Virus record (IMG/VR): IMGVR_UViG_3300045120_000380 | Coordinates: 1 to 31,050 of that record | DNA from: a virus | Length of the DNA: 31,050 bases | Strand: one strand, 5' to 3' | Shown: one piece after another, positions 5,279-21,333 of the stretch | Numbering within the stretch: the first letter of the stretch is position 1 | How the letters are laid out: the number at the start of each line of letters is the position of its first letter | Notes under the pieces: model-generated | Seen by the model: only the letters and a program-made list of their open reading frames with translations | Told to the model about the DNA's origin: nothing | Databases searched by the model: none | Made by a program: the position numbers and the translations under genes

Positions 5279-5280
5279 GA

Positions 5281-6975: not shown

Positions 6976-7799
6976 TGTCGAGCCTGCGGTTTTGGGGGTT
7001 GAAAATCGAACGAGCCTTCAATCATGTCGGTCATGAAACCCTCCCGCATCAGCTGGTCGAACTTCAGCGGGGCCTTCGGAGAACCCTTGGCAAAAAATGA
7101 CTGCGAGCATTTGTTGAGAAGAAACCGAAAGGCCTCCTCCGGCGTGCCGTGGCCAAATTCCATCAGATCGGCAATTCGGCGTCGGCAGGCGATTGCCCGT
7201 TGATCCGTCAGCCTTCGGACGGGTTTGGAGCCGTGCTGAACGGCCCAATCGTTCCAGATGTCGCTGATCTGGTCGAGCAGCTTCAAGTCGCTGGCAGTTC
7301 GTGCAGTTTTCTTGCTTTCCGGCTTGTTTTCCGGCGGCGCTGCGCCGGCATCGGCGGCCGAGCCGGCCGATGACGAGCCTGCGATAGCAGGCTTATTAGA
7401 TTCTGAACGAAGTGAAGAATCTATAATAGTAGGTGTAGGTGTAGGTGCGAGTTGATGCTCGGCCCTTTCGTTGATTTTATTGCGTTTTTTGGCTCCGTTT
7501 AAGCGTTTTACCTCGCGAACTTTGAAGAGGTAAAACCACTCTTTACTCAATCTTTTTTGCGTCCAACCCCTTTCGGTTCGGGTCCAGAAACCCATTACGT
7601 CAGACCGAATTGCGGCCCACCGGCCGCCGCTGACTCGCGCCATCCTGGCGAGTATCCGGTCGTCGTCTGGCAGCTGCGCGCCCCTGAGCCACGCATGGCC
7701 GAGCAGGTAAAGATAGGCCTTGGCGACCTCTCCCGATACATGCTCAGTGTCGGCAAAAAACTCCGCCCAGAACATTGGCATGGAGTGCAACTCGCTCAT
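6963..7799 (-). CDS. DUF1376 (YdaU-like) replication protein
   Basis: 278 residues from ATG at 7799, whose ATGA overlaps the upstream stop. Residues 5-95 match the DUF1376 winged-helix pattern: MPMFWAEFFADTEHVS, then YLYLLGHAWLRGAQLPDDDR and LARMARVSGGRW. A basic segment (KVREVKRLNGAKKRNKINER) is followed by an Ala/Ser/Pro linker (about residues 120-165) and a C-terminal helical domain (LLDQISDIWNDWAVQHGSKP onward). DUF1376 proteins are replication-initiation-type phage proteins. Position in an operon with a VRR-NUC nuclease supports an early replication role. Confidence 0.75.
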   Translation of the reverse strand: MSELHSMPMFWAEFFADTEHVSGEVAKAYLYLLGHAWLRGAQLPDDDRILARMARVSGGRWAAIRSDVMGFWTRTERGWTQKRLSKEWFYLFKVREVKRLNGAKKRNKINERAEHQLAPTPTPTIIDSSLRSESNKPAIAGSSSAGSAADAGAAPPENKPESKKTARTASDLKLLDQISDIWNDWAVQHGSKPVRRLTDQRAIACRRRIADLMEFGHGTPEEAFRFLLNKCSQSFFAKGSPKAPLKFDQLMREGFMTDMIEGSFDFQPPKPQARQWAR

Positions 7800-8200
7800 A
7801 CCGCGCGTGCTTCGCGCGTCTCGATCCCCCACTCGCGGAACGCCATCCGCACGTCCTGGACGCTGCGCACGATCGCGGCGTCAATCCCCAGCGCGACAAG
7901 CTGATGGAACATTTCCCGCTGCTCGGCGCTAAGGCCGCCGTCGGGCGCTTTGACCTCAAGGAAGAATACCTTGCCGACAGGAGCGAGAACCGCGAGGTCC
8001 GGTATGCCGGCCAATACGCCAGTCCAGCGTAAGCGGGCCGCTTCAGCTTTGCCGCGCAGCCCGCCGTTCGGAATTGCGAACACCACGACCTGGGGGGCGC
8101 ACCAGCGGATCCACTCGACTACTGCAGCCTGAATGCGCGCCTCGGCGTTGCCGTCACGGCGACGCTCGACCGGCTGAGGCTTGAGCGCTGCCTGGCTCAT
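7796..8200 (-). CDS. VRR-NUC domain nuclease
   Basis: 134 residues from ATG at 8200, overlapping the upstream stop by 4 bp. The VRR-NUC signature (PD-(D/E)xK superfamily) is complete: a helical start with E20 and Q24, IPNGG at 43-47, GIPDLAVL at 65-72 with the catalytic Asp, LEVKAP at 81-86 with Glu and Lys, then GGLSAEQREM. Stand-alone phage VRR-NUC proteins are thought to cut branched or replication-intermediate DNA in place of RusA-type resolvases. Context between an XRE regulator and a replication protein agrees. Length is typical for the family. Confidence 0.88.
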   Translation of the reverse strand: MSQAALKPQPVERRRDGNAEARIQAAVVEWIRWCAPQVVVFAIPNGGLRGKAEAARLRWTGVLAGIPDLAVLAPVGKVFFLEVKAPDGGLSAEQREMFHQLVALGIDAAIVRSVQDVRMAFREWGIETREARAV

Positions 8201-8460
8201 GGCAGATCCCACACCGCACGCGCTCGCGCAAACGACGCCTCGTTAAGGCTCTCGAAGCGCTTTTCGTCCGCAGCCCAGATTTTGGAGCCGGGGGCCTTGA
8301 GCGCCTTCGTCCAGCGCATCATCAGATCCCACGACGGATTGCGGGTCCCGCTCTCGACATGGTGGATGTGAGTGCGATTGACGCCAATCAAGGCGCCAAG
8401 CGCCGCCCTGGACAGTCCAGCCCGTTCACGCGCGGCAATGAGTTCGTCGCGCCGGGTCAT
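8197..8460 (-). CDS. XRE-family regulator
   Basis: 87 residues from ATG at 8460 (MTRRDELIAARERAGLSRAA). The HTH is clear: LSRAALGALIGVNRTHIHHV, then ESGTRNPSWDLMMRW, with recognition helix at RTHIHHVE. The C-terminal 25 residues are helical and unassigned. It is the first gene of the minus-strand replication operon and diverges from another XRE gene at 8502 across only 41 bp, so the two probably share a control region. It may regulate its own operon. Confidence 0.75.
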   Translation of the reverse strand: MTRRDELIAARERAGLSRAALGALIGVNRTHIHHVESGTRNPSWDLMMRWTKALKAPGSKIWAADEKRFESLNEASFARARAVWDLP

Positions 8461-8501
8461 GCAGGTTGACCCTGAAGGCCGGCGCTCATTATGTCTACTG
8501 G

Positions 8502-8732
8502 ATGGAGACAATTCCCGAGCCAAGGCTGTATCTCATGAGATGGCGTCACCGACGAGAGTTGACTCGGAAGCAGCTCAGTATGCTCACGGGGATCAGCGAG
8601 AGCGCTATCTGCAGGTACGAGTCCGGCGAGCGGCGCGTGCATATCGGGGTTCTGGTCAAGCTCGCTGCGGCGCTGGGCGTGCGCCCGGGAGCGCTTTTTG
8701 CGCCCCCAAAGCCGCCAAAGCTTAAGGCGTGA
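8502..8732 (+). CDS. XRE-family regulator
   Basis: 76 residues from ATG at 8502 (METIPEPRLYLMRWRHRREL). The HTH core is TRKQLSMLTGISESAICRYE, then SGERRVHIGVLVKLAAALGV. The C-terminus is Pro/Lys-rich. An alternative TTG at 8466 would add a short unconvincing extension. It is an isolated plus-strand gene between two minus-strand XRE genes, converging with the one ending at 8738 only 5 bp away. Confidence 0.75.
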   Translation: METIPEPRLYLMRWRHRRELTRKQLSMLTGISESAICRYESGERRVHIGVLVKLAAALGVRPGALFAPPKPPKLKA

Positions 8733-8737
8733 CGAGT

Positions 8738-8947
8738 TCATGCCGCAGCCTCCCCATGGGGAGGAACGAAATCGTCGAGCGAAGAAACCTCGTTGTTCGT
8801 CGCGCGTGCGATTCGCTGCATGAGAGCAAGGTTCGGAACTCGCTCGCCCTTCAAAATCCGCGTGATAGTCGACGGAGGAGCGGCGATCTGCTCTGCAAGC
8901 TTGCTCGCGGTAATTGCCTCGCGCTTGAGATACGCTGCTAGCTTCAT
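8738..8947 (-). CDS. Cro-like XRE regulator of the switch
   Basis: 69 residues from ATG at 8947 (MKLAAYLKREAITASKLAEQ). The HTH reads ITASKLAEQIAAPPSTITRI, then LKGERVPNLALMQRIARAT. It has Cro-like size with no extra domain. It diverges from the repressor gene at 9041 across 93 bp with four palindromic operators, the arrangement of a cro/cI lysis-lysogeny switch. Which protein acts as Cro and which as CI is an inference from size and direction. Confidence 0.72.
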   Translation of the reverse strand: MKLAAYLKREAITASKLAEQIAAPPSTITRILKGERVPNLALMQRIARATNNEVSSLDDFVPPHGEAAA

Positions 8948-8957
8948 GACAGTCAGC

Positions 8958-9047
8958 TTGCCATAGGGCAAGTCAGGCGTCAACGCGTTTATTGCCGTAC
9001 GGCTTTTGCATATGGGCAAATCTTTGCTACAGCTTGCCCTGTGGCAA
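8958..9047. promoter_or_regulatory. Four operators TTGCC-N4-GGCAA in switch region
   Basis: Inverted repeats with 5-bp arms and 4-nt spacer lie at 8958-8971 (TTGCCATAGGGCAA, perfect arms), 8992-9005 (TTGCCGTACGGCTT, one arm imperfect), 9006-9019 (TTGCATATGGGCAA) and 9034-9047 (TTGCCCTGTGGCAA). The second and third are directly adjacent. The last overlaps the GTG start of the repressor gene, so repressor binding would block its own gene. The minus-strand Cro-like gene starts 11 bp from the first site. Confidence 0.75.
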
Positions 9048-9370
9048 ATCTTGCTATCAAACGAGCCCGCGAAGCCATTGGCATCAACCAAGACGAACTG
9101 GCTGATGATGTGGGCCTGTCGACGTCGCAGATCTCGCGGTTTGAAACTGGCGAGCGTTCGCCTCGCGCTATAGATGTTGTCGCCATAGCGCGAAGGCTCA
9201 AAGTGACCATCGATGAACTGATGGAGCCTTATTTACAAGAAGGCGACAAGGAGCTTCTTCCGCAAGATACGGAAGTCGTAAAGCTTTTTCGTCGGGCGAG
9301 CCCTGAGAAGCAGCTCATCGTCAAGACCATCCTGAGCACGGCTACGGACGGTGAGCAAGCAAGGAACTAG
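9041..9370 (+). CDS. CI-like XRE repressor
   Basis: 109 residues from GTG at 9041 (MANLAIKRAREAIGINQDEL). The HTH core is NQDELADDVGLSTSQISRFE, then TGERSPRAIDVVAIA. The C-terminal 45 residues (about 65-109) are helical (EVVKLFRRASPEKQLIVKTI) and probably mediate oligomerisation. No S24 peptidase domain with Ser-Lys dyad is present, so induction by RecA-stimulated self-cleavage is not expected. No ribosome-binding site precedes the GTG, and a weak promoter (TTGCAT 9006-9011, TACAGC 9028-9033) would start RNA at or next to it, so the message may be leaderless. Confidence 0.78.
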   Translation: MANLAIKRAREAIGINQDELADDVGLSTSQISRFETGERSPRAIDVVAIARRLKVTIDELMEPYLQEGDKELLPQDTEVVKLFRRASPEKQLIVKTILSTATDGEQARN

Positions 9371-9387
9371 GGTAGCCCTAGTTCCTT
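9361..9387. terminator. Perfect 12-bp hairpin over both convergent stops
   Basis: AAGGAACTAGGG (9361-9372), loop TAG, CCCTAGTTCCTT (9376-9387). The CTAG of the left arm supplies the TAG stop of the repressor gene on the plus strand and, read on the minus strand, the TAG stop of the convergent gene. There is no clear T-run after either side, so it is a likely bidirectional terminator or RNA-stabilising stem, not a canonical intrinsic terminator. Confidence 0.65.
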
Positions 9388-9552
9388 AGCTCTCTTCCGA
9401 GCCCAAGCCATTTCCTCGTCCGAGGGACCCCTCGCCCGCGCGTGATCGACGCCGACGGGCACATATAGCCGCGCAGGCTTCTCCTCTCCTCGTGCGACCG
9501 CTATCGCCTCACGAAGACCAGCGGCGATTTTGTCTCGAACATTTTTCGTCAT
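9367..9552 (-). CDS. Small antitoxin-like or regulatory protein
   Basis: 61 residues from ATG at 9552 (MTKNVRDKIAAGLREAIAVA, then RGEEKPARLYVPVGVDHARA). The KIAAGLxEAIxxARGE pattern followed by a short extended segment resembles the N-termini of antitoxin-type regulators found next to addiction toxins, but no toxin is adjacent. It is divergent from the gene at 9614, with two repressor operators between, so it is probably controlled by the lysogeny repressor. It converges with the repressor gene, sharing overlapping stops. Confidence 0.6.
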   Translation of the reverse strand: MTKNVRDKIAAGLREAIAVARGEEKPARLYVPVGVDHARARGPSDEEMAWARKRAKELGLP

Positions 9553-9558
9553 TATAAT
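9530..9558 (+). promoter_or_regulatory. Early promoter TTGTCT-N17-TATAAT
   Basis: TTGTCT at 9530-9535 and a perfect TATAAT at 9553-9558, exactly 17 nt apart. Transcription would start near 9565, inside the operator at 9558-9571, so repressor would shut it. It is well placed to drive the long early operon from 9614. Confidence 0.7.
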
Positions 9559-9604
9559 TGCCATATGGCATTTTGTCCTTGCATCCGCAATTGCCGTATG
9601 GCAA
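9558..9604. promoter_or_regulatory. Two operators TTGCC-N4-GGCAA at the early promoter
   Basis: TTGCCATATGGCAT at 9558-9571 and TTGCCGTATGGCAA at 9591-9604 share arms and spacer with the four switch operators. The first overlaps the -10 end and start point of the promoter at 9530-9558; the second lies in the leader 10 nt before the ATG at 9614. Confidence 0.75.
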
Positions 9605-9613
9605 GCTAGCTTC

Positions 9614-9928
9614 ATGACCACGAAGCAGCCCACCTCCACCATGACCCGCTTCCGCATCTGGTGGGAGGCGATGGACGCCGTACTGGAGCGGCGCGGCGAG
9701 CCTCCGCTCAGCTTCGAGGAGGCGCAGCGCTGGTTCTATTGCGAGATCGAGCCAGAAGACGTTCCCACATTCCCCTCCGCCGCAGTGCACCACGCAGCTC
9801 CGCGCCGCGCTGCTGCGCCACGCAACGCAGCTCAACGCAACGACCCACCCAAGGACGACGTCCCTTGGGACGATAGATTTTACGAAGAAAAATTGCCCAG
9901 AGGGTGGAGGCCAGATGAGCAAAGCTGA
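9614..9928 (+). CDS. First early-operon protein, contains repeat-derived linker
   Basis: 104 residues from ATG at 9614. Residues 10-50 look folded (TRFRIWWEAMDAVLERRGEP, then PLSFEEAQRWFYCEIEPED). Residues about 57-76 (AAVHHAAPRRAAAPRNAAQR) are an Ala/Arg/Pro linker encoded by a stretch of the same CGCNN pentamers that fill intergenic gaps further on. The C-terminus (DDVPWDDRFYEEKLPRGWRP) is normal again. It is the first gene after the operator-controlled promoter. Family and function are not recognised. Confidence 0.65.
   Translation: MTTKQPTSTMTRFRIWWEAMDAVLERRGEPPLSFEEAQRWFYCEIEPEDVPTFPSAAVHHAAPRRAAAPRNAAQRNDPPKDDVPWDDRFYEEKLPRGWRPDEQS
9786..9842. repeat. CGCNN pentamer array R1, inside a coding region
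   Basis: About eleven degenerate five-base units, CGC followed by two variable bases (for example CGCAA CGCAG, CGCAA CGACC), with some phase slips. This stretch is translated as the Ala/Arg/Pro linker of the gene at 9614-9928. It is the shortest of six arrays in 9.8-16.6 kb. Confidence 0.6.
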
Positions 9929-9930
9929 CA

Positions 9931-9997
9931 CCGCAGCGCTCCGCCCCGCGCCACTTCGCTACACCCCGCTCCGCTACGCACCTCCCCGCAACGCAAT
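9931..9997. repeat. CGCNN pentamer array R2
   Basis: Units with five-base period read CAGCG CTCCG CCCCG and so on, equivalent to CGCNN in another phase. It lies between the stop at 9928 and the ATG at 10021. A frame with ATG at 9915 and a good ribosome-binding site (GGTGGAGG) runs through it into the next gene, so it may instead encode an Arg/Pro/Leu-rich N-terminal extension. Confidence 0.65.
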
Positions 9998-10020
9998 ATT
10001 TCACCAAAGTAGGACACTCA

Positions 10021-10514
10021 TGACACCGACTGTAGTCTTTCAGGCTGGCGCAGACGCCATTGCTCTTCATGAGCATCTAATCCTAACCCCCGTTGGAGCC
10101 GTCGCGACCTATGCCCGGCTTGGCGACGCTATTGGTAAGCCCGTCAACGGGTCATGCGGGGCGCTGCGAACCGCACGCCTGATCGCCCAGCGCGAGGATG
10201 GCGCGATCTTCTCCTGCATCAAAGGCGAAGGCCTCAAACGTCTCGACGACGAGGGGATCGTGGCGCTCGCCGGAGTGGAGACGCTATCCGTCCGGCGTCG
10301 CGCTCGCACGGTCGGTCGCAGGCTTGGGGCGGCCGTGTTCGAGAACCTCCGTGAGGCGAGCCGAATGCGCGCCATCGCCATCGCCTCGGTGCTCGCGGTT
10401 GTCAGCGATCTGACGCGCGAGAAATCGGTTTTGCGGGTAACGGCAGCAGCGTCTGGTCGCGCTGCGCAACTGCCGATCCGTGAAACTCTGCAAGCTCTTG
10501 GTTTGCAGATATGA
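10021..10514 (+). CDS. Hypothetical protein preceding first repeat-associated protein
   Basis: 164 residues from ATG at 10021 (MTPTVVFQAGADAIALHEHL). Residues 15-70 look like a winged-helix fold: TPVGAVATYARLGDAIGKPV, a turn, then ALRTARLIAQREDGAIFSCI and GEGLKRLDDEGIV. The second half is basic and helical (SVRRRARTVGRRLGAAVFEN). It may bind DNA or RNA. An upstream ATG at 9915 would add a repeat-encoded 35-residue extension. It is flanked by pentamer arrays R2 and R3. Confidence 0.7.
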
Positions 10515-10706
10515 CCGGCGCTTCGCGCCGCTGCGCATCGCAGCACGCCGCCGCTCTCCGCTGCGCCGCACGTCGCCCCGCTACGCGCCACATCACTTCG
10601 CAACTCTGCGCACCTCTTCGCAACGCAATGCCCTTACTATCTCAGCGCGCTGCAACGCACCGCTACGCAGCACTCCACTCCGCCGCGCCCCGCCTCGCAA
10701 CGCTTT
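10515..10706. repeat. CGCNN pentamer array R3
   Basis: About 38 degenerate units fill almost the whole gap between genes 10021-10514 and 10723-11292, for example CGCTT CGCGC CGCTG CGCAT. Phase is kept for long stretches, with slips around 10580 and an interruption near 10628-10645. All frames are open for long distances because the unit avoids stop codons, but the translations are not protein-like. Confidence 0.85.
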
Positions 10707-10722
10707 TTAGAGGGAGAAACAA

Positions 10723-11292
10723 TTGCCAAAGCTAGTTGAGGTCGATTTCGTCGGCATCTCGCCGTACAGCCAGTCGCGTAAGCACAACACCCCCAAGCTC
10801 GAAAAAGAGACCTGGGAGGACGCTGAGGCGCGCACCTGGCGCGAGAAGTGCACGGCCAACGAGAAAGGCGAGATCGTCATCCCGGCGATGGCGTTCAAGC
10901 AAGCCCTTGATGGCGTCGCCAAGCGGCTGGGCGATCAGATCCCCGGCAAGGGTAAGTCGACTTACACCAAACACTTCGTTGGCGGCGTCATCTGCGAGGA
11001 GGACGTCGTATTGCCGGGCTGCCGTAAGGACGACTGCCCCAGCATCACTATCTCCGCCAACTCCGACGGCGTGCGAGGTAGCGGCAAACGGGTTGATCGC
11101 ACCTTTCCCCAATGGCCCAAATGGAGCGGCAAGGCGAGGTTTGTCGTCATGGACGACACAGTGACGAGCGAGGTTTTCGAGCGGCACTTTCGCGAAGCCG
11201 GGCGGTTCATTGGCGTCGGGCGGTTCCGACCCGAAAAAGGAGGCCTCAACGGACGATTTCAGCCAACCAAGTTCCACTGGCAGGAGATTTAA
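10723..11292 (+). CDS. Repeat-associated protein A (possible RAMP/Cas7-like fold)
   Basis: 189 residues from TTG at 10723, chosen because GAGGGAGAAACAA gives a good ribosome-binding site and VEVDFVGISPYS continues as a first beta strand. Homologous to the protein at 15683-16282: both have a KW or DW site followed by an F-V-V/F-T-V strand, a D-x-x-(V/I)-(T/S) pattern and a shared motif, here IGVGRFRPEKGGLNGRF at 163-179, then HW. A glycine/arginine-rich loop near the C-terminus and a strand-rich N-terminus recall RAMP/Cas7-type RNA-binding folds, but this is inference. Arrays R3 and R4 flank it. It precedes the Erf gene. Confidence 0.75.
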   Translation: MPKLVEVDFVGISPYSQSRKHNTPKLEKETWEDAEARTWREKCTANEKGEIVIPAMAFKQALDGVAKRLGDQIPGKGKSTYTKHFVGGVICEEDVVLPGCRKDDCPSITISANSDGVRGSGKRVDRTFPQWPKWSGKARFVVMDDTVTSEVFERHFREAGRFIGVGRFRPEKGGLNGRFQPTKFHWQEI

Positions 11293-11295
11293 TGG

Positions 11296-11452
11296 CTCTT
11301 CGCACCGCCTCGCACTGCAACGCTCCACTCCGCTGCGCTGCGCCGCGCATCGCAATGCCTCGCACCGCAACGCACTTACCCATCGCCGCGCGGCGCCGCA
11401 CGGCGCAGCGCATTGCTACTCGGCGCGCCTCGCCGCAACGCAACGCCAATCC
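11296..11452. repeat. CGCNN pentamer array R4
   Basis: About 31 units in near-continuous phase directly after the TAA at 11290-11292, for example CTTCG CACCG CCTCG CACTG CAACG. It ends about 17 bp before the ATG of the Erf gene. With R3 it brackets the gene for protein A. Confidence 0.85.
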
Positions 11453-11469
11453 ATAAGAGACAAGACCCG

Positions 11470-12288
11470 ATGAGCAACCACGATCTTCTCATGACAGACA
11501 GCGCCGCAAATTCGGCTGCGGCGCTTAGTCCCGGCGGGGGCCTGATCCCCTCAGCTCCTGCCGGGGCGACCGATCCCTACCTGGCGATGATCGAGCGTGC
11601 GGCGCGCGATCCGACCATCGACATCCTCAAGCTCGAGGGCCTCATGGGCCTGCGCGAGCGGATGGAAGACAGGCGCGCCAAGCAGGCTTTCGACAACGCC
11701 ATTGCGCGGGCCAAGGGCGAAATCGGGCCGATCGTCAAGAACCGCACCGTCGACTTTACGGGCGGCAAGGGGCGCACGAATTACCGCTATGAGGACTTTG
11801 CCGCCGTCGCGGCCGCAGTCGATCCTGTCCTGGCGCGGCATGGCTTGAGCTACCGCTTCCGCAGCGAGCAGAGCGGCAACAGGCTCAAGGTGATCTGCCG
11901 GGTTTCGCATGCCGACGGCTTTGGCGAAGAGACGGCGCTGGAGGCCCAGAACGACGAGAGCGGCAACAAGAACGCCATCCAGTCGGTTGGCTCCGCCGTC
12001 ACCTACCTTCAGAGGTACACGCTGAAGCTCGCGCTTGGCCTCGCCGCCTCGAACGACGACGACGGTCGTCTCGGCAAAGACGAGGACGGCGACGGTGGCA
12101 CGATCGACGGCGATCAGCTCGCCCAAATGCAGCAACTCATCGCCGAAACCAAGAGCAATGTCGGAGTATTTTTCCTGACCCTCAATTGCGTCGGCTTTTC
12201 CGACATGACGGTCGCCCAGTGGAAGCGCGGGATCGCCTTGCTCAACGAGAAGCGGCGCCGCATGGCGACGGCGACGGCGACGCCATGA
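11470..12288 (+). CDS. ERF-superfamily single-strand annealing protein
   Basis: 272 residues from ATG at 11470. The ERF core spans about residues 40-190: IERAARDPTIDILKLEGLMG, then RRAKQAFDNAIARAKGEIGP and TNYRYEDFAAVAAAVDPVLA, followed by GLSYRFRS and the conserved SAVTYLQRYTLKLALGLA with acidic NDDDG. Erf anneals complementary single strands and, with an exonuclease, drives phage recombination and circularisation. The C-terminal 65 residues are variable, as usual. Its ATGA overlap with the exonuclease gene makes a coupled recombination pair. Confidence 0.9.
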   Translation: MSNHDLLMTDSAANSAAALSPGGGLIPSAPAGATDPYLAMIERAARDPTIDILKLEGLMGLRERMEDRRAKQAFDNAIARAKGEIGPIVKNRTVDFTGGKGRTNYRYEDFAAVAAAVDPVLARHGLSYRFRSEQSGNRLKVICRVSHADGFGEETALEAQNDESGNKNAIQSVGSAVTYLQRYTLKLALGLAASNDDDGRLGKDEDGDGGTIDGDQLAQMQQLIAETKSNVGVFFLTLNCVGFSDMTVAQWKRGIALLNEKRRRMATATATP

Positions 12289-12923
12289 CCAGCGATGACC
12301 GCCAAGCCTTTCTGCAGGCGCGCTGTGGATCTGTTGGCTCGTCCGACATGCCAAACATCATCCGGCGGACAAAGGCTGGCTACAGCGCCTCCAGGGCCAA
12401 TTTGATGGCCCTCAAAGTGCTTGAGCGCCTGACCGGGCTCCCGGCTGAAACCTACCAGAGCGCAGCCATGACTGCGGGAGTTGAGCGCGAGCCGCTGGCG
12501 CGGGCGGCTTACGGCTTCATGCAGGACGTCACCGTTGAGCTCGTGCCGGCGCCGGGCGTGGTGCCGCATCCGCTGATCGAGGGAGCTCATGCCTCGCCGG
12601 ACGGAACGATCGGAATGCTTGGGCTTGTGGAGATTAAGTGTCCGCAACCGGCGGCGCATCTCGACACGCTACTGAACGAGAAGATCGACAACGACTACTT
12701 CGTGCAGATGCAGTGGCAAATGGCTGTGACCGGCCGCCACTGGGCGGACTATGTGAGCTGGTCGCCGGACTTTCCGCCGTCGATGCAGTTGTGGTCGGAG
12801 CGCGTGGAGCGCGCGCCGGAAGTGATCGACGAACTTGAGCGAGAAGCGCGCCTGTTCCTGAAGGAACTCGAGGCCAAGGTCGCTGAGCTGCGCAAGCGTT
12901 ACGAACTCAAAGAGGCGGCGTGA
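12285..12923 (+). CDS. YqaJ/lambda-exonuclease-like recombinase partner
   Basis: 212 residues from ATG at 12285 (4-bp overlap with Erf). PD-(D/E)xK motifs are in order: GSSDMPNI at 18-25 with the Ser/Asp start, GVEREPLAR at 65-73, SPDGTIG at 104-110 with the catalytic Asp, LVEIKCPQP at 114-122 with Glu and Lys, and YFVQMQWQM further on. This is the YqaJ viral recombinase family, a 5'-3' exonuclease supplying single strands to the annealase. The C-terminal 40 residues are coiled-coil-like. Length is normal. Confidence 0.9.
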   Translation: MTSDDRQAFLQARCGSVGSSDMPNIIRRTKAGYSASRANLMALKVLERLTGLPAETYQSAAMTAGVEREPLARAAYGFMQDVTVELVPAPGVVPHPLIEGAHASPDGTIGMLGLVEIKCPQPAAHLDTLLNEKIDNDYFVQMQWQMAVTGRHWADYVSWSPDFPPSMQLWSERVERAPEVIDELEREARLFLKELEAKVAELRKRYELKEAA

Positions 12924-12977
12924 CGCCGAACGAAATGGGCGAGCCGACTCTCTCGGCCAAAACTAAAGGTGGGACAA

Positions 12978-13673
12978 ATGAAAAGACTTCTTTTAGCGAC
13001 CGCATTGGCGACCGCATTCGGCGCCCCCGCGATGGCGGCAGATACCGCCATCATCATCTGGAATACGGCAGACCCGCTGGGCGCCGAAACCGCGACCGGC
13101 ACCACGCAGGCGAGTATCCTGTCGTCCAATCTCGACGGCATCACGGTATCGGTAAGTTCGGTGTTGAAGGGGACCAACCCCAACGATCTGACCGAAGCCA
13201 ATATCAACATCGACAATACCACCGGCACAGTACAGACGCTCAAGATCATCGCCGGCGCCAATGGGTACGCGGGTCCGACCACCGGGTTCACGCTGACCGG
13301 CACGATTGGCGCAACCCTTGGCGGCAGCGACTTGGTGGGCCAGTTCTTCGCTGACGCAACCAACTCGCTCAACGGTCAGAGCCTAAGCGTCACCGGCACG
13401 CTTCTCGACAGCTTCAACTCGGGTGCGTTGACCGGGCCGCAGTCGTTCTCGTTCAACGGCGCCGGGCTCGACGCCCTGCTCGCTCCCTATGGGCTGGCGG
13501 AAGAGTTGACGCTGACGCTCCAGCCGGGGGCGAGCGTGTTCGTGCAAGGTGTGTCGATGGATGCGGTCAACGCCGTTCCGGAACCGTCGACATGGGCGAT
13601 GCTGATCGCGGGCTTCGGCCTGATCGGCGCGCTTGGCTGGAAGCGTAAGCGTACCCCGCGTTTCGCGGTCTGA
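12978..13673 (+). CDS. Secreted protein with PEPxWA-CTERM sorting signal
   Basis: 231 residues. It starts with a Sec signal peptide (MKRLLLATALATAFGAPAMA) and has AAAGGTGGGA upstream. The mature part is Thr/Asn/Gly-rich and beta-like, without cysteines. The C-terminus carries the full tripartite signal: VPEPSTWAM, a hydrophobic helix (LIAGFGLIGALGW), and a basic KRKR end. PEP-CTERM proteins are processed by exosortase/archaeosortase-type enzymes during export to the surface; PEPxWA forms are typical of Alphaproteobacteria. A small hairpin (GCCGA-CTCTC-TCGGC, 12943-12957) lies upstream. It is the first gene of a coupled cassette inserted in the recombination operon. Finding it on a phage is unusual. 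Confidence 0.85.
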   Translation: MKRLLLATALATAFGAPAMAADTAIIIWNTADPLGAETATGTTQASILSSNLDGITVSVSSVLKGTNPNDLTEANINIDNTTGTVQTLKIIAGANGYAGPTTGFTLTGTIGATLGGSDLVGQFFADATNSLNGQSLSVTGTLLDSFNSGALTGPQSFSFNGAGLDALLAPYGLAEELTLTLQPGASVFVQGVSMDAVNAVPEPSTWAMLIAGFGLIGALGWKRKRTPRFAV

Positions 13674-13759
13674 TGGACGCCGTCCATCAGGCGCTTGTTT
13701 GGGGAATGATCGTCATCGTTTTCGCGGCGGTGACGATCATCTTCATCGTGGTGATTTGA
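13673..13759 (+). CDS. 28-residue membrane peptide
   Basis: ATG shares a base with the TGA of the PEP-CTERM gene (TGATG), so it is translationally coupled. The product is MDAVHQALVWGMIVIVFAAV, then TIIFIVVI, a single strongly hydrophobic helix from residue 8 to the end. No known family. Its position between two PEP-CTERM genes suggests a role in export or membrane handling of those proteins, or a small holin-like role; neither is demonstrated. Confidence 0.6.
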   Translation: MDAVHQALVWGMIVIVFAAVTIIFIVVI

Positions 13760-13771
13760 CGAGAAAGCAGA

Positions 13772-13891
13772 ATGATCATGGACGCAAATCTGTTCGCCAG
13801 CGACGTCATCTGGAACCTGAATGTCGTTCTGGCCGGCTCGATCACTGTGATCATGATCGCGTTGGGTCTGCTGGCGAGCGAGAAGTCGTGA
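13772..13891 (+). CDS. 39-residue membrane protein
   Basis: ATG at 13772 with GAAAG upstream; a second ATG 6 nt later is also possible. The sequence begins MIMDANLFASDVIWNLNVVL and continues AGSITVIMIALGLLASEKS, one transmembrane helix with a short N-terminal polar part. Its stop overlaps the GTG of the next gene (GTGA). Together with 13673-13759 and 13888-14028 it forms a string of three coupled tiny membrane proteins. Confidence 0.6.
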   Translation: MIMDANLFASDVIWNLNVVLAGSITVIMIALGLLASEKS

Positions 13892-14028
13892 TCGCAGTGT
13901 TTCTGGTGGTCCCCCTGCTCGCCATCATCGGCGTGATGAGCTTGATGCTGGTCGGCATGACCATATTGGTCGCAGTCCTGTGGGGAGCGGCAGGCGATGA
14001 ACAAGAGAACGAAAGGGAAGTCCAATGA
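13888..14028 (+). CDS. 46-residue membrane protein
   Basis: GTG start overlapping the previous TGA. Residues 1-33 are hydrophobic (MIAVFLVVPLLAIIGVMSLM, then LVGMTILVAVLWG), enough for one long or two short helices. The tail is acidic (GDEQENEREVQ). The stop overlaps the ATG of the second PEP-CTERM gene (ATGA). The acidic tail probably faces the cytoplasm. Function unknown. Confidence 0.6.
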   Translation: MIAVFLVVPLLAIIGVMSLMLVGMTILVAVLWGAAGDEQENEREVQ

Positions 14029-14837
14029 AAAAGCACCTATTGACGGCGGCGCTATGCGCGTTCGCCCTGCCCGCATATGCACAAACCGTTCCCGACCCAA
14101 CGATCTACGATCCCCTCCACATGTGCTACACCACCGGGTGCTCGTCATTCGGCGGCGTCACCATCTCGACCGTAGGCGGCTCTGGCCTCGCCAATTGGGG
14201 CGTCAGTTCATCGCCCGCCCCGCAATCAGGCGTGCTGTTCCTCGCCCTCCTCGTCCCCAACAACGAGGCTGAAACGGTGCAACCGACGCTGTCGGGCACG
14301 CTCAACGGCAACCCGCTCACCATCGAGGCCCCGGTCGCTGAGGGCACATTCAGTAGCGGCCTTGACCTGACCGACATCCTCAAAGCGGCGCTTGGCAACG
14401 GCGCGTCGCCGCCCAATCCGTTCTCGGCCTATAGCGGCGCGACGCTGCTGGAAGACCCGACCTTCACCAATTACAGCGTCGAGCTCTTCAAAGTGGACGG
14501 GACCTTCACGACCGGCGCGGACGCCGGCCAGGTCAGCACGCTCGACAATTCGTTTTCGTTCACGGGCGGCGACTATGTGTCGGGCCTGAATACATTGGCC
14601 GGTATCGGCCCGGGCGCGATCATCACCGCGTTCCTGGTTGAGAGCGGCATCGACAAGAAGACGGGTTTGCCGACCATCGACGTCGTCTCGACTGCGCAGT
14701 CGTCGTCGCTGTTGGTCACGCCCTCCAGCGCGCCGCCGGTGCCCGAGGCTTCGACCTGGGCGATGCTGCTGGCCGGCTTTGGCCTGATGGGCCTCTTCGG
14801 ATGGCGGAAGCGCCGTGCGTCTGCGCTGGCCTTCTGA
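14025..14837 (+). CDS. Secreted protein with PEP-CTERM-type signal (PEA variant)
   Basis: 270 residues. Signal peptide MKKHLLTAALCAFALPAYAQ, with GAAAGGGAAG as ribosome-binding site. A Cys pair (MCYTTGCSS) near residue 35 is followed by a beta-rich Gly/Thr/Ser body. The C-terminus reads VPEASTWAM, a hydrophobic helix (LLAGFGLMGLFGW) and basic RKRR. The third residue of the PEP motif is Ala instead of Pro, while WAM, helix and basic tail are kept, so it is probably still a sorting signal. It is not a recent copy of the 12978 protein: the bodies differ while the tails match. Confidence 0.83.
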   Translation: MKKHLLTAALCAFALPAYAQTVPDPTIYDPLHMCYTTGCSSFGGVTISTVGGSGLANWGVSSSPAPQSGVLFLALLVPNNEAETVQPTLSGTLNGNPLTIEAPVAEGTFSSGLDLTDILKAALGNGASPPNPFSAYSGATLLEDPTFTNYSVELFKVDGTFTTGADAGQVSTLDNSFSFTGGDYVSGLNTLAGIGPGAIITAFLVESGIDKKTGLPTIDVVSTAQSSSLLVTPSSAPPVPEASTWAMLLAGFGLMGLFGWRKRRASALAF

Positions 14838-15003
14838 CATCGAAACGATCATGGCCGGCATGGCGGCGCTAGGCGTATCGCTGGTCGCCCGTCATGCCGA
14901 GCCAACCGACGCGATGGTTGTCCTTGCCTGGGCGACGGGCTGGATTGGCTCGATTTTGGTGATCGTCGGCGTCGGCAGGGTGATCTTTCTTACATGCGTC
15001 TGA
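14815..15003 (+). CDS. Two-helix small membrane protein
   Basis: 62 residues from GTG at 14815, with GCGGAAG as ribosome-binding site; ATG at 14851 would give 50 residues. Two hydrophobic segments are seen: IMAGMAALGVSLVA, then MVVLAWATGWIGSILVIVGV, separated by a polar RHAEPTDA turn. It overlaps the second PEP-CTERM gene by 23 bp and NinB by 10 bp, so the cassette is read as one coupled unit with recombination genes. A holin-like shape is possible, but no endolysin is adjacent. Confidence 0.6.
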   Translation: MRLRWPSDIETIMAGMAALGVSLVARHAEPTDAMVVLAWATGWIGSILVIVGVGRVIFLTCV

Positions 15004-15380
15004 GCCGAACGATAACACAAGCTAACCGCGCCGACCTCGTGCGCGCGGTTGAGCAAGCGCCGCTCGGGGCGCAGCTCGATCTCGTCGACGATCCGCGCAC
15101 CACTGCTCAGAACCGGCTCATGTGGGCGCTGCTCAACGATATATCCGACCAACTGAGACACGGCGGCGAAAAGTGGGAGCCCGAGGAGTGGAAGTGCGCC
15201 TTCCTCAAGGCGCTCGGGTTCAAGCTCCGCTTCATGCCGGCGCTCGACGGCAACGGCGTGGTCGCGCTCGGCTATCGATCGAGCAAACTCGACAAGGAGA
15301 AATTCAGCGAGCTGATCGAGCTCATCTATGCTGAGGGGACGCAGCGCGGCGTCATCTTCCATGGCGAGGCGGTCGCATGA
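14994..15380 (+). CDS. ninB: NinB/Orf family recombination protein
   Basis: 128 residues. Family features: an N-terminal strand (RLSRTITQANRADLVRAVEQ), the QNRLMWALLNDISDQLRHGG helix, EEWKCAFLKALGFKLRFMPA, then a GYRSSKLDKEKFSELIELIY stretch with the S-S-K-L/F pattern typical of NinB. In lambda, Orf (NinB) acts as a recombination mediator that helps load annealase on SSB-coated DNA and can replace RecFOR. Its presence with Erf and YqaJ exonuclease completes a phage recombination set, although the PEP-CTERM cassette separates them. Confidence 0.85.
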   Translation: MRLSRTITQANRADLVRAVEQAPLGAQLDLVDDPRTTAQNRLMWALLNDISDQLRHGGEKWEPEEWKCAFLKALGFKLRFMPALDGNGVVALGYRSSKLDKEKFSELIELIYAEGTQRGVIFHGEAVA

Positions 15381-15381
15381 G

Positions 15382-15667
15382 AAAGGCTTGGCGAGGCCTG
15401 GCTCTGCTGGGCATGGCCGGGCAATGCGCGGCAAGGCAAGGACCGGCGCTGCAGGGCCCGGCTGGGCCTGGCAAAGCAATGTGGGGCGCAGCGAGGCGGC
15501 GCGTGGCAAGGCAAGGAAATTACAACATGAGACGCTGTGAGGCAGTGCCAGGCTCGGCCCAGCACGGCTCTGCGAGGCTGGGCACGGTCGGGCAATGCCC
15601 GGCGAGGCCAGGCTTGGCGATGCGCGGCGGCGCTCGGCCCGGCGCGGCAAGGCAAGGACTTTCTTAG
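15382..15667. repeat. GGCNN pentamer array R5
   Basis: About 57 units in the gap after NinB, for example GGCTT GGCGA GGCCT, GGCAA GGCAA GGACC. One interruption (about 15519-15546) is AT-richer. The unit differs from R1-R4 at its first base (GGC, not CGC) on the same strand. Long open frames run through it, but their translations are only Ala/Arg/Gly/Gln-type low complexity. Confidence 0.88.
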
Positions 15668-15682
15668 CAAGGGAGGAAACCG

Positions 15683-16282
15683 ATGGAAATCAGCATTGTT
15701 ATCGAGGGTAGGACGCCGTTAATCTGTAACCGCTTCACAGACGAGCAGGCGCAGAAGTCAACCGGAGGAAGCGGTAGCTCAAGCGCCGCCGCTGAACGTG
15801 GAACGCCGCAGGATATCGCGCAGAGCAAGCTCTATATCGTCAACGGCAAACCGGTCATTCCCCAGCCCAATTTGTTGCGCTGCTTGATCGATGGCGGCCA
15901 GTTCCACAAAAGCGGCAAGAAGCAGATCACGACGAAAAAAGAGTCGATGCTCTACGCCTGTGTCGACATCGAAGGCGTCGCCATCGAGATCATTCATAAG
16001 CAGCCATGGAAGGTCGATACGCGCCCGGTGGTCATTCCATCGACTGGCGGCCGCATCCTCTGTCATCGGCCGATGTTCGATGACTGGCGGCTCGAGTTCA
16101 CCGTGCATCTAGACACGACGATCGTGTCAAAGAGCCTCTTCCGATTGATCGTTGACGACGCCGGAAATCGTGTTGGGCTCGGCGACTATCGGCCTAGCAA
16201 GAAAGGCCCCTATGGGCGCTTCCATGTCGTCCACTGGGAGGAGGTTGAACAGGAGGTTCTTCTTCCACTTGCTGCCGAATGA
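15683..16282 (+). CDS. Repeat-associated protein B, homolog of protein A
   Basis: 199 residues from ATG at 15683 with GGGAGGAAACCG upstream. It shares with protein A (10723-11292) an N-terminal strand (ISIVIEGRTPLICNRF), a KPVIPQPNLLRCL segment matching GEIVIPAMAFKQAL, a DW...F-T-V strand, D-x-x-IVS-x-x-LFR, and the motif VGLGDYRPSKKGPYGRF at 164-180 followed by HW. Overall similarity is low but collinear. Residues 25-45 are a Gly/Ser/Ala linker. Arrays R5 and R6 (GGCNN) flank it on both sides, as R3 and R4 (CGCNN) flank protein A. Nucleic-acid binding is inferred from context, not shown. Confidence 0.75.
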   Translation: MEISIVIEGRTPLICNRFTDEQAQKSTGGSGSSSAAAERGTPQDIAQSKLYIVNGKPVIPQPNLLRCLIDGGQFHKSGKKQITTKKESMLYACVDIEGVAIEIIHKQPWKVDTRPVVIPSTGGRILCHRPMFDDWRLEFTVHLDTTIVSKSLFRLIVDDAGNRVGLGDYRPSKKGPYGRFHVVHWEEVEQEVLLPLAAE

Positions 16283-16560
16283 GCCTGGCATGGCGAGGCG
16301 CGGCGGTGCATGGCGAGGCTGTACTGGGCAAGGCGAGGCATGGATCGTTTGTCAATTTCCAGAGCCCGGCGCTGCGAGGTTAGGCATGGCGATGCGGGGC
16401 GCGGCACGGTTCGGCCGAGCGAGGCGAGTCCGGGCGGCGCGTGGCACGGCCAGGCATGGTCGGGCAAGGCGGGGCAAGGACATGGCAGTGCAAGGTATGG
16501 CCCGGCCCGGCTGGGCATGGCGGGGTACGGCACAGCGAGGCGATGTGCGGCAAGGCATGG
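16283..16560. repeat. GGCNN pentamer array R6
   Basis: About 55 units immediately after the stop of protein B, for example GGCAT GGCGA GGCGC GGCGG. There is an interruption near 16341-16366 and several phase slips. It runs to about 10 bp before the HNH gene start. Confidence 0.88.
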
Positions 16561-16570
16561 ATTTAATCAC

Positions 16571-16963
16571 GTGAGAAAGATACCGGCGTGGCGTGGATCG
16601 AGCGATGACGCACGTGTCCCCCTGCAGGTCCAGTTGCGCGTCCTGGTGAGGCAAAAAGGCCGCTGCGCCATCACCGGCCACAAGTTCACGCCGGGAGACG
16701 CCAAGCGTCTCGACCATATCATCCCGCTTGCCGACGGCGGCCTGCACGGCGAGGAAAACCTGCAGTGGATCGTCGACATCGAGCATAAAGCCAAGACCAA
16801 GGCGGAAGCCGAAGTGCGCGCCAGGGTGAGGAGCGTCGCCGCCAAGCACGCGGGGCTCGAACGTCCAAAGCGGCGCTCGAACAACTGGGTGCGGCGTAAA
16901 GAGCCGAAGCCGCCGCTCAAGGTCGCCGCGGGCAAATCGGAAATAGCAAGGAGGTTCCAGTGA
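16571..16963 (+). CDS. HNH endonuclease-like protein
   Basis: 130 residues from GTG at 16571, the first start after array R6. The HNH domain is clear: VRQKGRCAITGHKFTPGD, then RLDHIIPLADGGLHGEENLQ and W. It has the DH pair and the Asn, with a His in WIVDIEHKAKT. The loop has one Cys, unlike CxxC-bearing forms. The C-terminus is basic (KRRSNNWVRRKEPKPPLK). Phage HNH proteins act in packaging, recombination or homing; here the place next to recombination genes and an array suggests an early DNA-processing role. Frame extension into R6 is possible but looks untranslated. Confidence 0.8.
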   Translation: MRKIPAWRGSSDDARVPLQVQLRVLVRQKGRCAITGHKFTPGDAKRLDHIIPLADGGLHGEENLQWIVDIEHKAKTKAEAEVRARVRSVAAKHAGLERPKRRSNNWVRRKEPKPPLKVAAGKSEIARRFQ

Positions 16964-17199
16964 GGCTTGCCCTCGCCCTGGCGCTGACACTCGCTGCGGG
17001 TCCGGCCAGCGCGCACTGCTTTACCCGATGGTACTACCCCTGGAAGCAGCATTGCGCGACCTCGTTTCGCGCTCTGCGGCCAGCTCCGGCGCGGGTGGCC
17101 GTTCCCCGTGCGCCCGCGCCGGTTGCGCCCATCGATGAGGGCGCCCTCCGCGCCCAAGCGATCGAGAAGCTCAAGTTGATACTGGGAGAGAATCAATGA
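16960..17199 (+). CDS. Small secreted hypothetical protein
   Basis: 79 residues from GTG at 16960, overlapping the HNH stop by 4 bp, with AAGGAGG upstream. Signal peptide MRLALALALTLAAGPASAHC, with cleavage likely after ASA. The mature part holds two Cys (HCFTRWYYPWKQHC) that could form a disulfide, then a Pro/Ala-rich linker and a helical end (EGALRAQAIEKLKLILGENQ). Family not recognised. It is the second type of secreted product encoded in this early operon. Confidence 0.65.
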   Translation: MRLALALALTLAAGPASAHCFTRWYYPWKQHCATSFRALRPAPARVAVPRAPAPVAPIDEGALRAQAIEKLKLILGENQ

Positions 17200-17546
17200 A
17201 CGAGAGGCCGGCCGTGAATCGCCTTCGTGAAGCCATGCGCAACGCCAATATCGAGGCCCTAGACGAAGTGGAGGAAGTGGCCGAGGAGATTGGCCGCCAC
17301 GCCGTCGCCGCCGCGCTCGCGCCGCCGCCGCAACTCAAGCGCCTCGAGCCCACCGACGAGGAGCGGCAGAGGTTGCTGGATGCAGCGCTGGCTGACGCGA
17401 TCGAGACGGTCTCGCGCCACCGCATACGGATCGGCCGGCGGGTCTGCTCACGCTCCGACGCCACAATCACTCGCCAGGTCTATGAGCTGTTGCGCTCGAT
17501 GGCTGGGGCTGACGGCGGCGCCGATAACGACGCGAGCTTCCAATGA
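17196..17546 (+). CDS. Hypothetical helical protein
   Basis: 116 residues from ATG at 17196, overlapping the previous stop by 4 bp. It is helical throughout: NRLREAMRNANIEALDEVEE, then VAEEIGRHAVAAALAPPPQL and EERQRLLDAALADAIETVSR. The tail is Gly/Asp-rich. No signature is recognised. It is coupled to the excisionase-like gene by a 4-bp overlap, so it is probably an early accessory. Confidence 0.55.
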   Translation: MNERPAVNRLREAMRNANIEALDEVEEVAEEIGRHAVAAALAPPPQLKRLEPTDEERQRLLDAALADAIETVSRHRIRIGRRVCSRSDATITRQVYELLRSMAGADGGADNDASFQ

Positions 17547-17758
17547 TTGAAGGCAATCGCGGTCGCCTCATCGTTCTTCGCGAGGCCGCCGAGCGCGGGC
17601 ATATGCACGTAGAGACCTTACGAAGCCTTTTGCTCGCCGGCAAAGGACCGCCAGCGATTAAGCGGCCAGGCTCGAGCCATTGGCTCTTCTGGACATCGGA
17701 ATTCGACGCTTGGCTCGAGAGCGGCCGAGTTAAGAACCGATCCCCTGCGGGCCTTTAA
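17543..17758 (+). CDS. Excisionase-like small DNA-binding protein
   Basis: 71 residues. LIVLREAAERGHMHVETLRS, then LLLAGKGPPAIKRPGSSHWL and FWTSEFDAWLE, is the winged-helix pattern of MerR/AlpA/Xis-type proteins: a first helix after LREAAE, a recognition helix near VETLRSLL, and a wing with KRPGSS. It is the last gene of the early operon and converges with integrase, the stops overlapping by 4 bp (17755-17758). Size and position support an excisionase (RDF). This is a family-level inference. Confidence 0.72.
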   Translation: MIEGNRGRLIVLREAAERGHMHVETLRSLLLAGKGPPAIKRPGSSHWLFWTSEFDAWLESGRVKNRSPAGL

Positions 17759-18948
17759 GCAGACTGACGCAAGGGCGTGATGTTGGCGCCCATGAGCGTC
17801 GTCAGCTTGGCGGCCCAAGAGTTCAGGGCGTCTCTTTGCTTATGCAACGTAACCGCTCGGTTATAAACCCCTGCAACGCCTCCCCGAACGCCGGATGTAT
17901 GGCCAAGCAAATCCTCAATGACGAGCGAATCGACGCCGGCCTCATAAAGACGGGTTGCAACGGTGCGCCTGATGTCGTGAAGGGTCCAACCCTCTCCCGC
18001 GACAGCGCGCAGCCGATCGGTCGCGACGCCCCAACCCGAGAACGGCGACCTGAATCCCGAACCATCGCCGAAAATATAAGCCTCGTCCCTCTGACCTTCG
18101 GCACGCTCCGCGAGCATCGCAGCGATGGTGTCTATCATCGGAATGACGCGCTCGCTGGTTTTCGCCACTTCGTCCCTGACCTTGATCGTCCGCGCCTCGA
18201 AATCGAGATCGCGCGGTTGCAGATTGGCGACCTCGCCTTTGCGCATGCCGGTGTGCAGCAGGACGCGCACGATGTCAGAAAACGGAGTTCTGTCGGTCGT
18301 CAGGCGAGCGATAGCGCCAAGTTCCGCGTCGGTCAGCACGCGCGTCCGCGCCTTTTCGGCGCCCCTCTTTTTCACGCCAACAAGGGCTACCGCTTGGACA
18401 AGCTCACGCTCATGCAGCCATCCAAGCCAAGCGCGAATTTCAGCTTGGGCGCGATTGCGCGCGACTGGCCCGCTTTCCTTTTCGATCACATCAAGGCGGT
18501 TGATGAGTCCGCCCTTGGTGAGCGACGCAACCGGATCATTGTTGAACGGTTCGACCGCGCGCCGCAGCTTCGCCATGCGCTGGCGTCGCGAAACCTCTTT
18601 GGCTCCGCGAACGAAATCAAGTTCATAGAGTTGAAGCGCTTCGCGGACATTCTTGATGCGGGTTGCTTCAATTCGCAGCGCCGCCCCTGCGGCCTTGCGC
18701 TCGAGGTTCGGGTCGCGCCCTTCGTGAATCATCAGCTTGTGCTTGAGGACAGCGGTGCGCGCATCGGCGAGCGACGTCACTTCGAATGTACTGCGCGCGT
18801 TTTTGCCGGTCACGGGCGAGCGATACTCGAAGCTGAAGGTTCGCTTGCCGGTCGGATAGACCCGCACGACAAGGCCGTGATCGCGCAGTTCCGTAAAGCC
18901 GGTCTTGGGCGTCGGCGTGGTGTCGATAATTCGCTGGGTGAGAGGCAT
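17755..18948 (-). CDS. int: Tyrosine integrase
   Basis: 397 residues from ATG at 18948, chosen because AAGAAGGAACCGACGAA gives a good ribosome-binding site; a longer frame to 19041 would read through the inverted repeat. The N-terminus (GFTELRDHGLVVRVYPTGKR, then FSFEYRSPVTGKNARSTFEV) is the arm-binding DUF4102-like domain. A core-binding helical part follows. The catalytic domain has HTGMRKGEVANLQPRD with the first Arg, HDIRRTVATRL with His and Arg, LGHTSG with His, and VYNRAV with the Tyr. All five main residues except the beta-hairpin Lys (not placed) are seen. It converges with the Xis-like gene. Confidence 0.93.
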   Translation of the reverse strand: MPLTQRIIDTTPTPKTGFTELRDHGLVVRVYPTGKRTFSFEYRSPVTGKNARSTFEVTSLADARTAVLKHKLMIHEGRDPNLERKAAGAALRIEATRIKNVREALQLYELDFVRGAKEVSRRQRMAKLRRAVEPFNNDPVASLTKGGLINRLDVIEKESGPVARNRAQAEIRAWLGWLHERELVQAVALVGVKKRGAEKARTRVLTDAELGAIARLTTDRTPFSDIVRVLLHTGMRKGEVANLQPRDLDFEARTIKVRDEVAKTSERVIPMIDTIAAMLAERAEGQRDEAYIFGDGSGFRSPFSGWGVATDRLRAVAGEGWTLHDIRRTVATRLYEAGVDSLVIEDLLGHTSGVRGGVAGVYNRAVTLHKQRDALNSWAAKLTTLMGANITPLRQSA

Positions 18949-18963
18949 TTCGTCGGTTCCTTC

Positions 18964-18995
18964 TTTGCCCACACGCCCACATACGTGTGGGCAAA
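18964..18995. promoter_or_regulatory. Large inverted repeat upstream of integrase
   Basis: TTTGCCCACA (18964-18973) and TGTGGGCAAA (18986-18995) are perfect 10-bp arms 12 bp apart. Inside, GCCCACA (18975-18981) pairs with TGTGGGC (18986-18992), giving a nested alternative. It lies 16 bp before the int start, so it is a likely operator or an arm site for integrase or excisionase. Confidence 0.55.
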
Positions 18996-19338
18996 AGCGG
19001 GTTATGCCGCCTCCATAGCACACGGTGTAGGAAACTGTCAAACGCAGAAATACCCAGCAAATCCATACATATCAATGATCGAGCGCTTGGGTTTGCGGGG
19101 CTCTGATGTGTGCGTTTTCGGGATGGAGCTACACGCGTAGCGGTGTTCAGTTCACTCACAAGACCCACTTACAATACACTGAAATGAAAGATAAAAAGAC
19201 CAATAACGGGAGGCTCGAAAAAGTGGCCCTCACACACCGCCAGCCCCTAAATGTGTGTTTCATGTGGGCAAGGCGAGACACGTTGCAGGCCCGCTGCGAG
19301 CCGCCTATGTTGTCTACAGGCAACCGACGAAACCGACG
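18996..19338. other. Non-coding region upstream of integrase
   Basis: No gene is supported here. It holds an extra half-site TGTGGGCAA (19263-19271) matching the arm of the int inverted repeat, and a short palindrome GCTAC-ACGC-GTAGC (19128-19141). It is the best place for an attP core because it adjoins int, but no core sequence or tRNA-like segment could be recognised. Confidence 0.4.
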
Positions 19339-19599: not shown

Positions 19600-19619
19600 C
19601 TGACGAAGTGAGATGTGAA

Positions 19620-19706
19620 ATGTATATTCCAACCCATATGATTTTAGCCGCAGTTGGAGCATTCATCTGCGTGCGGATCGCCATGGTGCTGCTGCGCAAG
19701 TTCTAA
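19620..19706 (+). CDS. 28-residue membrane peptide
   Basis: ATG at 19620, TAA at 19704-19706, overlapping the stop of the convergent virion gene by 4 bp. The product is MYIPTHMILAAVGAFICVRI, then AMVLLRKF, a single hydrophobic helix with a basic end. It lies 20 nt after the DUF1640-like gene. The ribosome-binding site is weak (GAAGTGAGATGTGAA), so translation is probable but not certain. Confidence 0.45.
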   Translation: MYIPTHMILAAVGAFICVRIAMVLLRKF

Positions 19707-21331: not shown

Positions 21332-21333
21332 GG

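Follow-up and report, generated by a model that had tools for sequence, protein, structure and literature searches.

The backbone of Class 1 CRISPR-Cas complexes is formed by Cas7 or Csm3, proteins with a RAMP fold and a G-loop that oligomerize on a guide RNA with periodic non-paired positions. A CRISPR-related viral system, termed VIPR for Viral Interference Programmable Repeat, was reported in a preprint in April 2026; in this system, a small Vipr protein finds the DNA of rival phages through RNAs built of five-letter repeats (PMC13142463). The main text of the preprint describes VIPR systems of SUSP1 and of P. fulva (type II) and distinguishes seven types. The RNAs, called vrRNAs, are given there as 9–16 GGY/NN pentamers in which NN pairs with DNA as xNN, so that one base is skipped, and SUSP1 Vipr co-purifies with pentamer-repeat RNAs. 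The repeat is stated as GGY/NN "or a related consensus," with the latter left unnamed in the main text (PMC13142463). Here we describe a region of the virus record IMGVR_UViG_3300045120_000380 (positions 1 to 31,050, hereafter the window) that almost certainly holds two VIPR systems in one phage. An original prediction, made from the letters of the window, pointed to two homologous proteins, A and B, each bracketed by its own class of pentamer array, and held that no known system combines these elements. VIPR does.

The homology of A and B proposed in that prediction is borne out. Both proteins match phrog_4652, an unassigned phage family (E = 7.5e-9 for A and 4.7e-17 for B), and an alignment of the two profiles spans 164 columns, close to full length (E = 1.3e-5, probability 80%). 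B also matches the solved SUSP1 Vipr chain 36pp_D (E = 4.4e-8 by sequence, 5.4e-9 by profile), as well as the vipr region of the SUSP1 genome. Profile searches and structure modeling had been suggested as checks, and the models lead to the same protein family: the AlphaFold (AF2) model of A (pLDDT 75.8, pTM 0.74) has type VII Cas7 and Csm3 as its best folds in the PDB (E = 7e-8, probability 1.00), and the B model finds Csm3/Cas7 folds of the same families. The C-terminal G-loop of A, GxGRFRxExGGxNGRF, is conserved within its clade. Judged from these alignments and predicted folds, A and B appear to be RAMP homologs with a G-loop, as a Vipr protein should be. Searches with A and B gave nothing meaningful in Pfam and nothing in PADLOC.

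The arrays lie where they had been placed, with CGCNN units flanking A and GGCNN units flanking B on the strand of the genes, as judged by a period-5 scan and a unit-level parse. The scan of the window locates CGCNN arrays at 9766–9850, 9916–10,010, 10,506–10,710, and 11,291–11,455, and GGCNN arrays at 15,376–15,670 and 16,276–16,565. The signal is 3.4–4.0 bits in the arrays, compared to peaks of 2.0–2.7 bits in shuffles. Period-5 arrays are present only between 9.8 and 16.6 kb, since no others were found on either strand of positions 1–9700 and 16,600–31,050. Tandem Repeats Finder missed the arrays of the window because NN varies. The GGCNN arrays stand on both sides of the B gene. The CGCNN arrays are not limited to the two sides of A and are also present upstream of the preceding accessory gene.

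Moreover, the two classes differ at more positions than the first base of the unit, which had been regarded as the sole difference. The triplet of the A arrays is C-D-C (position 1 is C in 91% and position 3 in 98% of units, with G, A, and T at position 2 in 79%, 12%, and 8%), and that of the B arrays is GGY (G in 79% at position 1 and in 97% at position 2, with C or T at position 3 in 91% or 7%). The B arrays are therefore tandem GGY/NN pentamers beside vipr, as in VIPR, and the A arrays have the period and layout of VIPR with a different triplet, which may be the "related consensus" of the preprint. In both cases a phage RAMP homolog of ∼20 kDa sits between intergenic pentamer arrays in which a fixed triplet alternates with a variable NN. 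Each array stretch is a tandem series of predicted guide RNAs, and in several cases a short U-rich tail lies between them. This motif, which was picked after inspection of the data and has a background of 0.26% of random 30-mers, follows 14 of 46 arrays that have another array next and none of 55 that have a gene next, and it is common to both classes. The vrRNAs of VIPR, likewise in tandem, carry an invariable structured 3′ tail, to which the U-rich motif may correspond.

The function of NN was examined in an all-against-all target scan, in which arrays were masked and guides from the sampled loci were compared with locus DNA under skips of 0 to 3 bases, with shuffled guides as a control. Nine-unit windows with at least 17 of 18 bases matched number 50 with a skip of one base, compared to 0, 1, and 0 with skips of zero, two, and three bases and 0 for shuffled guides. 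Much of this number reflects overlapping windows or phages that are nearly identical, so a tally per guide is more reliable. When a guide is counted if it has a match outside its own locus with a score of at least 16, the 1-nt skip yields 8 of 74 class A guides (0 of 74 for each other skip, 0 of 148 shuffled) and 6 of 33 class B guides (1, 1, and 0 for the other skips, 0 of 66 shuffled). Three of these 14 guides (one from Paracoccus and two from the window, at 9932 and 16,479) match loci that had been fetched for them by pattern, and 11 are left without them. Both classes obey the 1-nt-skip rule, and the skipped base falls at the codon wobble position. The NN letters, which had been treated as filler, are the guide information, and the triplet is presumably the protein-binding scaffold. 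The core of the earlier proposal, that the protein reads the repeat unit in RNA with a five-base step, probably stands by analogy with SUSP1 Vipr and its co-purifying RNAs (PMC13142463). The matches also lend independent support to the 1-nt-skip code and extend it to a second lineage and scaffold class.

Individual guides illustrate this pattern. A C-D-C guide from Paracoccus (GA CC CT AT GA CG GT AC CT GT), whose 1-nt-skip pattern was fixed before the search, has two exact 20/20 matches in 125 Paracoccus genomes, where ∼0.001 would be expected for random bases (an estimate from genome sizes). There are also one match with one mismatch and three with two mismatches. The reversed guide gave no exact match and one within two mismatches. 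Both exact matches and two of the near matches coincide within genes for a gpA-type terminase large subunit, at codons for DPLIERVTLV or a peptide much like it, and the wobble bases there are variable. The remaining two matches, each with two mismatches (L035 and L038), are in unrelated genes and were discounted. In the window, guide 9932–9996 has matches in seven viral loci, all seven antisense to the codons VY(D/E)GYKAGD, with 10 of 11 variable units matched and the skips at wobble positions; the target belongs to the Enc34-type single-stranded DNA (ssDNA)-binding protein family (PF10991, E = 5.7e-28). The 16 units of guide 16,479–16,558 have a single match, in the related locus L046, where 31 of 32 bases agree with the initial 16 codons of an HNH gene. 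Targets in competing phages and prophages include terminase, ssDNA-binding protein, HNH, vipr, helicase-like, and resolvase-like genes. As in VIPR, the matched genes belong to rival phages, the one skipped base falls at the wobble position, and some guides are aimed at other VIPR systems. One helicase-like gene (motif AGGTGLTLV), noted with L001 and L002, is a shared target of several C-D-C guides from related phages and is carried in the same neighborhood.

That array class should follow protein clade was a check set beforehand, and it does. All 11 viral relatives found for A (65–76% identity) have C-D-C arrays, and all nine viral relatives of B have GGY arrays. C-D-C arrays also accompany five further relatives of A in bacterial records, from Paracoccus, Devosia, Rhizorhabdus, a Rhodobacteraceae metagenome-assembled genome (MAG), and a MAG filed as Flavobacteriaceae. 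GGY arrays stand beside the distant Viprs of SUSP1, Gordonia phages UmaThurman and Trine, Pseudomonas phage LESphi2, and phage DSL-LC04. The C-D-C class forms one clade (support 100/99) when 27 Viprs are placed in a tree, and the three array classes require two changes compared to a mean of 9.9 when shuffled; the deeper order of this tree is unsure because its branches are long. The co-occurrence of homolog and array that had been predicted also holds, since flanking arrays are found with every Vipr relative examined. Among 14 phage or prophage loci that had been picked by target pattern and not through a Vipr, none was found to have an array; five of their viral records were searched for a Vipr, and none was found. 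In a class-level sample around Devosia, two Viprs occur in one genome (G416; locus L056, G416:C1:38000-48000), with GGC arrays after one and GTC arrays after the other. The pairing of two scaffold classes therefore recurs, and a third scaffold word, GTCNN, may exist.

Three other observations were made among the relatives. One viral record (L013) carries two Vipr-family genes, both with E < 1e-17 to phrog_4652, one of them noted at 5680–6261. The MAG filed as Flavobacteriaceae (L024) has an A-type Vipr and a homolog of the accessory gene, which are otherwise found in alphaproteobacterial loci, together with CTC-dominated arrays, and is possibly misbinned. Annotated gene 40 of Gordonia phage UmaThurman contains GGY/NN arrays (L047, 3080–3400) and for this reason is probably no real protein gene.

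If these are VIPR systems, then the arrays would be transcribed with the early genes to give vrRNAs of roughly 9–23 pentamers. A Cas7-like RAMP Vipr protomer would occupy each five-base unit, grip the triplet (C-D-C for A, GGY for B), and present the two variable bases. Successive NN pairs would then base-pair with double-stranded DNA as NNxNNxNN, with the skipped base usually at the codon wobble position, and the complex would find conserved genes of competing phages and presumably repress them. Because the wobble base is skipped, conserved rival genes could be found despite synonymous change. RNA processing, ribonucleoprotein assembly, DNA binding, and transcriptional repression would be expected here by analogy with the published SUSP1 work. 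A and B would each use only their own array class. One phage could run two non-interfering VIPR systems because the scaffold words differ while the skip code stays the same. We regard as about evenly balanced the broader proposal that Viprs read different scaffold words (GGY, C-D-C, and GTC) with the same 1-nt-skip code, that a phage may carry two such non-interfering systems, and that some of the guides are allelic, aimed at the version of the array's neighboring gene that rivals carry, while the phage escapes through recoding or divergence of its own copy.

Several findings weigh against the assignment to VIPR. A is only marginally similar to SUSP1 Vipr 36pp by sequence profile (E = 1.1), and the AF2 model of B is weak (pLDDT 60). 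Arrays of 23–26 units exceed the 9–16 units given in the main text of the preprint. One further Paracoccus guide has no exact target, and no exact target in viral contigs was found for four other guides of the window (10,641–10,705, 15,541–15,655, 16,282–16,341, and the first of 15,385–15,514), whose patterns, like that of the single-match guide 16,479–16,558, were equal in length to the pattern of 9932–9996.

Among other explanations, the one that deserves most attention, although it is unlikely, is self-regulation, in which vrRNAs bind the phage's own neighboring genes (vipr, HNH) weakly to provide feedback, and other phages show matches because they inherited these genes from a common source. 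Indeed, 12 of 107 guides show a resemblance (1-nt skip, score of at least 11) to a gene no more than 600 nt away from the array that encodes them, in several cases vipr itself; because some come from related phages, the 12 are not all independent. Shuffling the guides gives 0.19%, comparing them with remote parts of their locus gives 0.27%, and other skips give 0–1 of 107. However, the best match lies in other phages: the HNH guide of the window matches only 23 of 32 bases of its own HNH start, fewer than in L046. Own copies carry mismatches, as in L003, where the vipr gene has Ser AGC where the guide reads TCN, and the loci with the ssDNA-binding protein and terminase targets had been retrieved without a Vipr. 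We read the neighbor-gene guides as aimed at the alleles of rivals with self-escape; the chief competing reading is autoregulation. The resemblance of guides to a diverged form of a neighboring gene suggests how guides may originate and how the phage avoids targeting itself.

It is far less probable that the arrays are untranslated regulatory or operator sites, where A and B polymerize along mRNA leaders or DNA of the phage's early operon to control translation or packaging, with NN as filler. The arrays do lie between co-directional genes and often stop just 5′ of a ribosome-binding site, and Vipr-like RAMPs bind RNA. Such sites are strongly disfavored, however, by matches of NN to genes of rival phages that arise with one particular skip but not with other skips or with shuffled guides, and by targets that are in codon phase in conserved genes. 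The idea that the arrays are neutral simple-sequence expansions or recombination hot spots between phage modules is scarcely credible. The arrays flank exchangeable modules, and the colinear L046 lacks both cassettes. Against this, NN varies whereas the triplet is conserved, array class tracks Vipr clade, no arrays were found in the 14 loci obtained without a Vipr, and the targets match. Plain microsatellite and iteron readings were considered and rejected. So was a CRISPR array, which has direct repeats of ∼30 nt with unique spacers and cas1/cas2, compared to a unit of 5 nt here; no cas1/cas2 or CRISPR spacers were found, and no cas genes among the open reading frames scanned. The Viprs resemble Cas7/Csm3 of Class 1 CRISPR-Cas in their RAMP fold (by model match) and G-loop, and they differ in the pentamer scaffold, two paired bases per unit, and a single small protein. 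At the Rfam gathering threshold, the window and three loci (L001, L013, and L020) gave no hammerhead ribozymes and a sole match, a tRNA in L020; permissive matches in the window were dismissed as sub-threshold noise.

VIPR as a kind of system is thus already published. Compared to the main text of the preprint, this phage differs in having two Viprs with two array classes, the C-D-C triplet, another accessory gene, a short U-rich tail, and guides mirroring an adjacent gene; the C-D-C scaffold and its accessory gene, the two-class pairing, and the neighboring-gene guides are apparently absent from that text. The RAMP systems of CRISPR have been proposed to descend from VIPR, for which the scaffold word is given as GGY. 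This phage holds a GGY system together with a member of a clade that uses another word, a natural pair with which to map the triplet-reading residues of Vipr and to build orthogonal programmable DNA-binding systems.

Table 1. Features of the two probable VIPR regions and neighboring genes in the window
Feature	Coordinates	Strand	Basis or remark
CGCNN array, 14 units	9781–9850	+	Unit-level parse; weakest and least certain, overlaps an open frame
CGCNN vrRNA guide, 13 units	9932–9996	+	Target Enc34-type ssDNA-binding protein gene; wobble skip
Probable accessory (vap-like) gene of C-D-C clade, 164 aa	10,020–10,514	+	Homologs beside A-type Viprs
CGCNN array, 23 units	10,519–10,633	+	Period-5 scan and unit-level parse
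CGCNN array, 13 units, directly 5′ of viprA	10,641–10,705	+	Unit-level parse
viprA, putative Vipr-family RAMP protein, 189 aa, C-D-C clade	10,723–11,292	+	phrog_4652, AF2 fold, G-loop
CGCNN array, 16 units	11,296–11,375	+	Unit-level parse
CGCNN array, 13 units	11,384–11,448	+	Unit-level parse
ERF single-strand annealing protein	11,413–12,288	+	PF04404, E = 8.7e-19; start probably in the 11,471–11,500 region, not at the first TTG
NinB, just 5′ of viprB cassette	14,994–15,380	+	PF05772, E = 7e-24
GGCNN array, 26 units, probably two guides (internal GGCAAGGCAAGGA end)	15,385–15,514	+	Unit-level parse
GGCNN array, 23 units, directly 5′ of viprB	15,541–15,655	+	Unit-level parse
viprB, putative Vipr-family RAMP protein, 199 aa, GGY clade	15,683–16,282	+	SUSP1 Vipr 36pp, phrog_4652, AF2 fold
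GGCNN array, 12 units, then U-rich tail GGATCGTTTGTCAATTT	16,282–16,341	+	Unit-level parse and tail scan
GGCNN array, 23 units	16,363–16,477	+	Unit-level parse
GGCNN vrRNA guide, 16 units	16,479–16,558	+	Target is first 16 codons of HNH gene of related phage
HNH gene of the window, diverged (non-matching) allele of the 16,479–16,558 target	16,574–16,963	+	76% identical protein in L046

The accessory protein upstream of viprA has homologs in L001–L008 and L023–L027 (E = 1e-43 to 1e-4). None was found in any B locus, and the protein has no match to SUSP1 vap1. Because its homologs stand beside A-type Viprs and are lacking in B loci, sequence comparison makes it likely that this gene is the vap of the C-D-C class. 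No vap accessory gene was recognized for viprB.

The surrounding genes form a phage recombination module of an ERF annealing protein, a YqaJ exonuclease, NinB, and HNH. The relative L046 is colinear and has no arrays or Vipr within its 11 kb; in place of the viprB cassette (15,381–16,560 of the window) it carries an unrelated gene. The position between ninB and HNH is a site of cassette exchange. Between the exonuclease and ninB, the window also encodes two PEP-CTERM-tailed proteins of secreted type, at 12,969–13,673 (by Pfam) and 14,025–14,837 (by sequence), which would be unusual cargo for a recombination module.

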